DNA of 64,000 bases from Gemmatimonadota bacterium (GTDB taxonomy: Bacteria > Gemmatimonadota > Gemmatimonadetes > Longimicrobiales > Gaopeijiaceae). Below, piece after piece: positions 50,184 to 55,386 of the stretch. The stretch spans positions 41,221 through 105,220 of the forward strand of contig JAPPGF010000028.1 in the NCBI GenBank assembly GCA_028875075.1, given 5' to 3'. Both the position numbers and the translations under genes were made by a program. Every line of letters starts with the position of its first letter. The first letter of the stretch is position 1. A model generated the notes under the pieces. That model made no database searches. It was not told where the DNA came from and was given only the letters and a program-made list of their open reading frames with translations.

Positions 50184-50894
50184 TCACGGCTTACCGGGTC
50201 GTGCCTCGGCCTCCGGAAGAAGCATCATTTGTCTCGCGAGCTCGAGATCGGCTCGGGTGTTCACGTTGAAGAAGAGGCGCTCGGGGTTGCCGTAGCGACG
50301 CACGTCGTCGAGCGGCAAGCGCTCGACGCGCACCTGCTCGAGAAAGCCGACCATGCGGTGATCGCGGCGCGTGAGGGCGCTCTCGATCGGTTCGATGCAC
50401 GAACGGGAATAGAACGCGAACAGCGGCTCGATCCCTTTCCGGTTGCCCGGATTCTCGGGAACCACGGCATCTGCGCCGCCCGAGGCCGCAATCTCCGCGA
50501 TTCTCCGCAGAAGTGGCGCGGAGGGAAACGGCAGATCGCAGGCAACCGCGAGGACCCCCGGCCTCTTCAGTTGCGCCGCCCACCGAAGAGCAGCGAGGAC
50601 TCCACCCAACGGTCCGAGCCCGGGGACCGCGTCGGCGCGCGTCGGGAAGTCCACCTGGTCTCGAAGAGCGGTTTCGTCCGCGATCAGCACCACCTCGTCG
50701 GTCGCTTCCGCGAGCGCGGCCGCAACTCCGTCCACGAGGCACCGACCCTGGATCGGCTCGAGGGCCTTGGTCGCTCCGTAGCGGGTGCTGCGACCGCCTG
50801 CGATCAGCGCTCCTAAGGGACGATGTGAAGACACGCCGAAGTCTTTGTTGAGGCATTGCTGACAATAGATCTGCTTCTCATCCATCCCCTCCAA
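50184..50894 (-). CDS. mobA: Molybdenum cofactor guanylyltransferase
   Basis: GALIAGGRSTRYGATKAL, GPLGGVLAAL, ACDLPFPSAPLLRRI, NVNTRADLELA. Confidence 0.85.
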   Translation of the reverse strand: MEGMDEKQIYCQQCLNKDFGVSSHRPLGALIAGGRSTRYGATKALEPIQGRCLVDGVAAALAEATDEVVLIADETALRDQVDFPTRADAVPGLGPLGGVLAALRWAAQLKRPGVLAVACDLPFPSAPLLRRIAEIAASGGADAVVPENPGNRKGIEPLFAFYSRSCIEPIESALTRRDHRMVGFLEQVRVERLPLDDVRRYGNPERLFFNVNTRADLELARQMMLLPEAEARPGKP

Positions 50895-51036: not shown

Positions 51037-52092
51037 CTAGGCCACGGCCGCTGCCACGCCCGGGGCGACGCTCCGCCCGACCGCCTCCGCGACCGGCCGC
51101 ACGGCCGTCATCATGGCCTCGAACTCGCCCAGGTCGAGCGACTGCTCGCCGTCCGAGGTCGCGCGCTCGGGATCGGGATGCACTTCGACGATGAGCCCGT
51201 CGGCACCGGCAGCGACGCCCGCGAGCGCGAGCGGCGCGACCAGGTGGCGGTAGCCCCCAGCGTGGCTTGGGTCGACGACCACGGGCAGATGGCTCTCGCG
51301 CTTGAGCACCGGCACGGCCGCCACGTCGAACGTGTTGCGGGTCGCCGTCTCGTAGGTGCGGATCCCGCGCTCGCACAGGATCACCTGCATGTTGCCCTGG
51401 CTCATGATGTACTCTGCCGCCAAGAGCAGGTCCTTGATCGTGGCGCTCATGCCGCGCTTCAGCAGCACCGGCCGGTGCAGGCGCCCGACCTCGGTCAGGA
51501 GGTTGTAGTTCTGCATGTTGCGCGCGCCGATCTGGAGCACGTCGGCGTAGCCCGCGACCAGCTCCACCTGGCGCGTGTCCATCACCTCGGTGACCACCGG
51601 TAGGCCGATCGCGGCGCGCACGTCGGCCAGGATCTTGAGTCCCTCCTCGCCCTTGCCCTGGAAGGAGTAGGGCGACGTGCGCGGCTTGAAGGCCCCGCCC
51701 CGGAGCGCCCGCGCGCCGGCGCCCCGCACGGAGAGTGCGGTCGACTCCATGATCTGTGGGGTCTCGACCGAGCACGGCCCCGCGATGACCAGCAGCTCCC
51801 GGCCGCCGATCTCGGCGTTCTTGAGCGGGATCCGCGTGGGGGTGGCCGAAAATTCGCGGGCGGCCAGCTTGTACGGCTTCACGACCTCGTGCACGCTCTC
51901 GACGCCCGGGATGGAGAGGAGCGGGGTCTCCCGCAGGCGCGACTCGTCCCCGATGCAGCCGATCACTGTGCGCGTCTCACCGCGCGAGATGTGCGTTCGC
52001 AGCCCCATGGCCTCGATCCTTTCGCGGATGTGGTCGAGCTCCTCGGCGGTGACGCCCGCCCGGGTCACGATGATCATGAGGTTCCTCGGCAT
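51037..52092 (-). CDS. aroF: 3-deoxy-7-phosphoheptulonate synthase (DAHP synthase, ferredoxin-like N-domain type)
   Basis: [59 protein letters not shown]. Confidence 0.95.
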
Positions 52093-52134: not shown

Positions 52135-52164
52135 AAAAGGCCCCCGGGGATCCCCCCGGAGGCC
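52135..52164 (-). terminator. Attenuator terminator upstream of aroF
   Basis: RNA-sense GGCCUCCGGGG-GGAU-CCCCGGGGGCC followed by UUUUGC. Confidence 0.8.
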
Positions 52165-52189
52165 TGGCGGCGGCGTCTCGTGCGTCCGA

Positions 52190-52282
52190 CTAACGCATTC
52201 GCCTCCGGCCCCCGGAGCGGGTCCCGAAGTAGTAAAACCACCGGAAGGCGGCGGGGCGGGCGAAGCGCTGGTCAGCGTCCAT
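52190..52282 (-). CDS. Aromatic amino acid leader peptide (30 aa) of the aroF attenuator
   Basis: [35 protein letters not shown] codons at 52226-52240; located directly before terminator and aroF. Confidence 0.82.
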
Positions 52283-52312
52283 GCGGGAAACCTGCGGCGG
52301 CGCCCGATCCGG

Positions 52313-52318
52313 TGTCAA
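52313..52318 (-). promoter_or_regulatory. Candidate -35 box for leader/aroF transcript
   Basis: TTGACA on minus strand about 31 nt upstream of the leader ATG; -10 not clear. Confidence 0.3.
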
Positions 52319-52429: not shown

Positions 52430-53359
52430 ATGGAACCGACCGCCGCACCGGCAAGGGCCAGCGTCAGCCGGCCCACGCTCGACCAGATGGCGCTCACCCT
52501 CGGCAAGCGGGTGAGGCTGAATCGCCTCTTCTACGGCTCAGGCCTGCGCAACGGCACGCTGATGATCCTGCCGATCGACCAGGGGCTCGAGCACGGGCCG
52601 ATCGATTTCTTCCCGAACCCGGACGCGGCGGACCCCGAGTTCCAGTGGCGCCTTGCGGACGAGGGCGGCTACAACGGCGTCGCGTGCCACTACGGGCTCG
52701 CCCGCAAGTACATGGAGCGTTACGCGGGGCGCGTGCCTCTGATCCTGAAGATCAACGGCAAGACGAACGTGCCCACCGACTCCGACGCGCTCTCGACCCT
52801 TACGGGCAGCGTCGAGGACGCAGTAGCGCTGGGCGCTGACGCCGTCGGCTATACGCTCTACGTCGGCTCCCCGCGCCAGGACGAAGACATCGTGCAGATG
52901 CACATGGTCCGAGAGGAGTGCGACCGCTACAACATGCCCCTCGTCGTGTGGGGCTACCCGCGCGGCGCGGCGATCGAGGAGAAGGGTGGGCGGGATTCGC
53001 TCTACGCCGTCGACTACGCCGCACGCGTGGCGCTCGAACTGGGGGCCGACATCGTCAAGCTGAACATCCCGAAGCACTCCCCCAAGGATGCGCGCCAGCC
53101 CAAGGATTACCAGAAGCTGGAGTGGACGTACGAGCAGGGAGCCGAACGCGTCGTCCGCTCCGCCGGGCGAGTGCCCGTCCTGGTGAGCGGCGGCAGCAAG
53201 CTGGGCGACGACGACCTGCTGGCCAAGGCGCGCGTGGCCCTGAAGGCGGGGGCCTGCGGGCTCATCTTCGGGCGCAACATGTGGCAGCGCCCGTTCGACG
53301 AGGCGCTCGCCATGAGCGAGCGGGTGCAGAAGGAAGTACTGGCCCACTTCGGGGTCTGA
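52430..53359 (+). CDS. Class I fructose-bisphosphate aldolase (FbaB/DhnA-like)
   Basis: MILPIDQGLEHGP, GADAVGYTLYVGS, GADIVKLNIPK, VLVSGGSKL, GLIFGRNMWQR. Confidence 0.92.
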   Translation: MEPTAAPARASVSRPTLDQMALTLGKRVRLNRLFYGSGLRNGTLMILPIDQGLEHGPIDFFPNPDAADPEFQWRLADEGGYNGVACHYGLARKYMERYAGRVPLILKINGKTNVPTDSDALSTLTGSVEDAVALGADAVGYTLYVGSPRQDEDIVQMHMVREECDRYNMPLVVWGYPRGAAIEEKGGRDSLYAVDYAARVALELGADIVKLNIPKHSPKDARQPKDYQKLEWTYEQGAERVVRSAGRVPVLVSGGSKLGDDDLLAKARVALKAGACGLIFGRNMWQRPFDEALAMSERVQKEVLAHFGV

Positions 53360-54908: not shown

Positions 54909-55268
54909 GGGGGCGACACGGCTTCGACGTGTCTAGGGAACGTGAAGCAGCGTGCCGAGGTCCCGGGACCTCGATAATCCACCGGGAACACTTCAATAGC
55001 TGCCAACTCTGATCTGGCGCTGGCCGCGTAAGGTTCTCCTTATCGCTGGCCCGTCTCCCGAACCGCCCGCCCGAGGCGGTTCCTGAGACGTCGACGAGTC
55101 GGGCTGGCCGTCCGGATGTGCTGTCCGTCCGGCGGCGAGACTTCAGCCAGCTGGTCCCGAATTCGGCCGATCGCCGGCCGGCGAGGGACGAGACGAAACG
55201 GCGATCTACGCACGTAGGCGCTTTGCCGGATCTAGTCGCGGACGCGGGTTCGACTCCCGCCGCCTCCA
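54909..55268 (+). ncRNA. ssrA: tmRNA; tag peptide ANSDLALAA encoded at 55002-55031
   Basis: 5' GGGGGCGACACGGCTTCGACG and 3' GGGTTCGACTCCCGCCGCCTCCA; 7-bp acceptor pairing; resume ORF GCC AAC TCT GAT CTG GCG CTG GCC GCG TAA. Confidence 0.95.
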
Positions 55269-55386
55269 TTTGCAAGAGTTCCAACTACCTCCGGTGAGGT
55301 CTCGTAAGTCCCTGTAGTTAAGGCGATTATCGGAGTATTCTGGTCTTGTATAGTCCACCCAAATTCCCTATGTTCTGCCGTTGCCG

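Follow-up and report, generated by a model that had tools for sequence, protein, structure and literature searches.

Organization of the aroF leader region

The window analyzed here is a 64,000-nt stretch of a Gemmatimonadota MAG (2.6 Mb, 42 contigs), in which the leader-aroF arrangement is present as a single copy. Its minus strand carries aroF, encoding a class I-beta 3-deoxy-7-phosphoheptulonate (DAHP) synthase, and the NCBIfam matches confirm the gene that the original prediction had placed behind a leader (Table 1). The DAHP synthase of Gemmatimonadales bacterium UBA2988, the nearest relative with a named record, is 82% identical. The gene is without an aromatic-pathway neighbour here, because it is flanked by a class I fructose-bisphosphate aldolase-like gene divergent from the leader (52430-53359, plus strand) and by a MobA-like gene downstream of aroF (50184-50894, minus strand). 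The window also contains a tmRNA gene at 54909-55271 on the plus strand (RF00023, 146 bits). The longest aroF ORF begins at 52092, and its M6, the second ATG at 52077, is the likely start, since the MIIVTR start kept in aroF orthologues maps to this ATG and a GAGG lies upstream of it. With this conserved start, the gap between the T-run of the terminator and aroF is ~57 nt and not the 43 nt given before.

The 30-aa leader ORF and its five consecutive aromatic codons at 52240-52226 are present as predicted, and the intrinsic terminator (52165-52135) has its GGAT loop and TTTT run at the expected place, with one G-U pair in the stem and a short T-run (TTTTGCTT). The arms of the original prediction are also found in the sequence, with arms 1 and 2 having to be slightly shifted. 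Arm 1, previously put at 52217-52212, is more likely 52228-52218, and the homologous arm 2 at 52217-52207 forms 11 bp with arm 3 (-22.1 kcal/mol), compared with 8 bp (-16.1 kcal/mol) for the previous arm 2 at 52208-52201.

Table 1 Features of the aroF leader region in the window
Feature	Position	Strand	Basis
Promoter-like element: TTGACA (52318-52313) and weak -10-like CAGGTT (52294-52289)	52289..52318	-	Sequence; comparison with 50 relatives
Leader peptide ORF, 30 aa	52190..52282	-	Translation; comparable ORFs in 50 of 71 orthologous upstreams
Control codons TGG TTT TAC TAC TTC (Trp15-Phe16-Tyr17-Tyr18-Phe19)	52226..52240	-	Sequence; aromatic clusters at a corresponding position in relatives
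Arm 1 (UUCGGgaCCCG), 5' strand of the 1:2 hairpin, overlapping the Phe19 codon	52218..52228	-	Predicted fold, -12.5 kcal/mol; same shape in several relatives; statistically weak
Arm 2 region: CTCCGGGGGCC (52217-52207, homologous antiterminator arm) overlapping CCGGAGGC (52208-52201, arm 2 of the original prediction)	52201..52217	-	2:3 covariation
Arm 3 (AGGCCTCCGGGG), common to antiterminator and terminator	52154..52165	-	Terminator scan; covariation
Arm 4 (CCCCGGGGGCCT) and TTTT run, intrinsic terminator	52135..52149	-	Terminator scan; 3:4 covariation
Shine-Dalgarno GAGG of aroF	52084..52087	-	Sequence; 38 of 50 relatives have a Shine-Dalgarno at the conserved aroF start
aroF, DAHP synthase, class I-beta	51037..52077	-	NCBIfam NF006421 and TIGR01361

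Aromatic leaders are conserved upstream of orthologous aroF genes

We compared the 450 bases upstream of 71 orthologous aroF genes from the same order (~64% identity and above). An ORF of 15-40 codons with at least four aromatic codons in eight was found in 44 of these upstreams. The reverse strand gave 1 of 71, dinucleotide shuffles gave 0.6% and random stretches of the window gave 0.2%. With a threshold of at least three aromatic codons in eight, 50 of the 71 upstreams were assigned a leader, and terminator hairpins are present in nearly all of these 50. The leaders were picked by aromatic content, while the promoter, Shine-Dalgarno sequence, terminator and pairing discussed below lay outside that choice.

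The leader sequence is fast-changing, and the peptides (for example RFYRWWYFYP, FFFGYFWFSY, WYRYGWY and YRYYWFA) barely align beyond their aromatic content. The remaining 21 of the 71 orthologues have no recognised leader, and some of these keep the promoter and the terminator. In the aroF upstreams L005, L010, L012, L013 and L016, the TTGAC box and the terminator are kept and the aromatic leader is missing or shortened.

The control codons differ from those of the genes that they precede. Among the 50 leaders, TAT accounts for 46% of the Tyr control codons versus 11% in the aroF genes of the same loci, and TTT for 52% of the Phe control codons versus 8%. This four- to six-fold enrichment over aroF, in GC-rich genomes, could be explained by a preference for rare codons or by the need for an unstructured, A+T-rich sequence.

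The leader ORF is probably translated from a leaderless mRNA

In most of the 50 relatives, TTGAC lies 34-39 nt upstream of the leader start codon (mostly ~36), where 0.4 would be expected by chance, and an AxxxT hexamer is typically placed 6-7 nt upstream of the leader start. In the present leader, the promoter-like boxes end 6 nt upstream of the ATG, which would put the start site at the ATG or directly beside it. A sigma-70 scan of the locus gave no match owing to the weakness of the -10 box; the promoter emerged only when the relatives were compared. A Shine-Dalgarno sequence precedes the leader in 7 of the 50 relatives, which equals the background, versus 38 of 50 at the aroF start. Since the promoter boxes are close to the start codon and the Shine-Dalgarno sequence is not above background, the leader ORF is probably leaderless, with transcription starting at or beside its ATG. 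Such a design would free leader translation from the need for a Shine-Dalgarno sequence.

Arms 2, 3 and 4 covary among relatives

The minimum free energy of the whole leader is unremarkable (z -1.33) and uninformative at this G+C content; the evidence for the RNA structure is therefore comparative. Arm 2, which lies in the last part of the leader ORF, forms a better pairing with arm 3 than shuffled sequence does, with a combined p of 6e-25 over the 50 leaders, which as relatives are not statistically independent in this and the other comparative tests. In a swap test, the mean of each leader with its own terminator exceeded all 20,000 swapped permutations. In a structure-blind alignment, the 2:3 positions are 87.6% paired, with 38 double-change cells versus 14 when shuffled, and their covariation of 0.363 compares with 0.185 when shuffled and at most 0.128 when slid. 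The 3:4 positions are 96.6% paired, with a covariation of 0.481 versus 0.214. Because the compensatory change in 2:3 and 3:4 exceeds the shuffled and slid controls, the three arms appear to change together across the relatives. The 1:2 hairpin, which is seen in the fold of this leader and of many others, is barely above shuffles (median z -0.36). Conserved aromatic codons and covariation in 2:3 and 3:4, which the original prediction led one to look for in relatives, were both found.

The same comparison bears on two other ways of reading a terminator or a short ORF at this place. A T-box, a riboswitch or the target of an RNA-binding protein would likewise put a terminator into the 5' leader of an amino-acid gene, but no Rfam family, the curated leaders (Trp_leader, Phe_leader, T-box and others) included, matched at gathering score, two irrelevant sub-threshold matches were all that appeared up to E 5, and no conserved aptamer-like core was seen beside the ORF and the arms; we consider this very unlikely. 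It is improbable, though less remote, that the peptide itself acts, by nascent-chain arrest on a ligand, by translational coupling or reinitiation or by mRNA protection, with the terminator being incidental. There is indeed a short ORF ahead of the gene and basic C-terminal residues recur (GRGxRR), but the coding of arm 2 explains this recurrent 3' part, no other feature of the peptide than its aromatic content is conserved, terminator and antiterminator covary, and the leader stop is far from the aroF start.

Codon choice follows the operon content

The genes downstream of aroF were compared with the prephenate dehydratase and dehydrogenase domains. The leaders of aroF-tyrA operons (n=15) contain 57 Tyr, 10 Phe and 2 Trp codons, those of aroF-pheA operons (n=4) contain 15 Phe, 7 Tyr and 2 Trp codons, and those of aroF with neither gene nearby (n=28, including the present one) contain 65 Tyr, 32 Phe and 27 Trp codons. 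The pheA and tyrA operons differ in their share of Phe codons with p 0.0025, uncorrected for relatedness, and Trp occurs in 21 of the 28 leaders whose aroF has no branch gene beside it, a contrast that is partly confounded with family. Judged from these counts, leader codon choice follows operon content, being Tyr-rich before aroF-tyrA, Phe-rich before aroF-pheA and mixed before a lone aroF.

A chance ORF beside an ordinary terminator or a GC-rich repeat would owe its stems to the high G+C, which makes them easy to form, and would fit the whole-leader folding energy. It is contradicted by the conservation relative to shuffles, the promoter spacing, the swap test, the rare-codon enrichment and the match with operon content, and we give it next to no weight.

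Two lone pheA (prephenate dehydratase) genes have Phe-rich leaders of the same design, which represent a putative sister attenuator for the Phe branch. In both leaders, AFFAFTFFAF (L151) and YFIDLDFFF (L158), a terminator is present and TTGAC precedes the start codon by 36 nt. The leader-like ORFs upstream of pheA in L218-L220 were set aside because they probably lie within upstream coding sequence. Trp leaders were looked for upstream of trpE and none was found, and a second DAHP synthase paralogue had no convincing leader in 20 examined cases, with two weak ORFs of three aromatic codons in eight. One of these two is the RFWF leader of a paralogous DAHP synthase gene beside pheA (L217, genome G009).

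In Planctomycetota, Acidobacteriota and other phyla, some DAHP synthase genes are likewise preceded by mixed aromatic leader ORFs with terminator-like hairpins (L059, L068, L081, L083, L107, L108 and L111), such as GGWWFYFYGF in L108. At least five aromatic codons in eight occur in 5 of 72 upstreams, versus 0.6% of shuffles.

The predicted switch point lies at the end of the aromatic run

We folded the RNA with a ribosome placed at each codon in turn, so that the folded stretch began at its leading edge and ended just short of arm 4, and used three footprint sizes. Over the 50 leaders, the mean sequestration of arm 3 was 0.75 while an aromatic codon occupied the A site; starting two codons beyond the last aromatic one, it fell to 0.29-0.46. 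For most leaders and with all three footprint sizes, the change point was no more than a few codons away from the last aromatic codon, which places the predicted switch point at the end of the aromatic run. For the present leader, arm 3 was sequestered by 0.91 from W15 to Y18 and by 0.75 at F19, and by 0.07-0.25 once codons 22-28 had reached the A site. Untranslated RNA is predicted to sequester arm 3 as well (0.91); therefore, no superattenuation is predicted at equilibrium.

These values bear on which amino acids are sensed. The original prediction held that a stall at Trp15 would leave arm 1 largely free and that the switch may respond mainly to Tyr and Phe. Because the antiterminator is predicted to be as free with W15 in the A site as with Y17 or Y18, Trp15 is not predicted to be ineffective and a switch for Tyr and Phe only does not follow. 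An attenuator whose effective signals are Tyr and Phe, or Phe alone, with Trp15 being passive, still deserves attention as a less likely alternative: Trp15 is furthest from arm 1, 11 of the 50 leaders have only Tyr in their core, and the Corynebacterium glutamicum AroR leader with Phe-Tyr-Phe answers Phe limitation only and not Tyr limitation (PMC11802643). The frequency of Trp codons before lone aroF genes is, on the other side, what would be expected if Trp is read, with the same confounding by family. On balance, we lean toward all three amino acids, Trp, Phe and Tyr, being effective signals.

A model for aroF attenuation

We conclude, with a probability of roughly 0.9, that aroF is controlled by a ribosome-mediated transcription attenuator. 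The conservation of aromatic codons, the 2:3 and 3:4 covariation, the switch point and the match between codon choice and operon content all agree with the trp/phe-type logic that the original prediction had proposed. From the anatomy, its conservation and covariation and the predicted dependence of the fold on the position of the ribosome, we infer how transcript, stalling, termination and amino-acid response would be connected in the cell. Transcription would begin at or beside the leader ATG and the leader would be read as a leaderless mRNA. Charged Trp-, Phe- and Tyr-tRNA would allow the ribosome to clear the WFYYF run and cover arm 2; arm 3 would then pair with arm 4 and RNA polymerase would stop at the T-run. 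A shortage of any of the three would leave the ribosome stalled with an aromatic codon in the A site, covering arm 1 at most, and arm 2 would capture arm 3 before arm 4 is made, leading to read-through into aroF. The attenuator very probably turns on the first enzyme of Trp, Phe and Tyr synthesis when charged aromatic tRNA is scarce, and a shortage of any one of the three would more likely than not be enough.

A broader proposal, for and against which we see about even chances, is a clade-wide family of attenuators. Here, a single leaderless leader would sense all three aromatic amino acids on behalf of the shared enzyme, and its codons would be re-tuned to Tyr when tyrA is gained or to Phe when pheA is gained. 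In a phylum whose gene regulation is little known, the leader would explain how the entry step of aromatic amino-acid synthesis is controlled, and a natural series of leaders that tracks operon content suggests that regulatory specificity could be read from genome sequence. If the proposal is true, the similar leaders in Planctomycetota, Acidobacteriota and other phyla would point to a common, overlooked control of entry into the shikimate pathway.

Comparison with known attenuators

In ilvGMEDA-type multivalent leaders, one leader contains codons for several end products, the branched-chain amino acids. The present leader resembles them in carrying codons for several end products and differs in that these are aromatic.

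With the Proteobacterial attenuators of the trp/phe/his type and with the trp attenuators known from Streptomyces and Corynebacterium (PMC1262725), it shares control codons, the pairings 2:3 and 3:4, arm complementarity that is kept across species and an intrinsic terminator; a 1:2 hairpin, statistically weak here, is predicted as well. Unlike these systems, it would read three amino acids of a branched pathway, and it has no Rfam leader match. The uORFC-13-1 motif before aroF in Acholeplasma is likewise a proposed upstream ORF with a terminator, but it has at least one Phe codon in a U-rich run and added structure, and it belongs to a different phylum (PMC8632094). Similar in target and logic is the aroR-aroF attenuator of C. 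glutamicum (Neshat et al. 2014, as described in PMC11802643; leader also in PMC4046766), in which a DAHP synthase gene is preceded by AroR, a leader peptide with Phe-Tyr-Phe, and is controlled by ribosome-mediated attenuation. In contrast to AroR, which answers to Phe only, the present leader contains Trp, Phe and Tyr codons together and occurs in another phylum. No earlier report of attenuators in Gemmatimonadota (Gemmatimonadetes) was found in the open-access literature. A DAHP synthase attenuator as such is already known from Corynebacterium as AroR, and the present leader would be a multivalent one of this kind. The mechanism itself is textbook, and what is unusual is that all three aromatic amino acids would be read and that the codon choice tracks the operon content.
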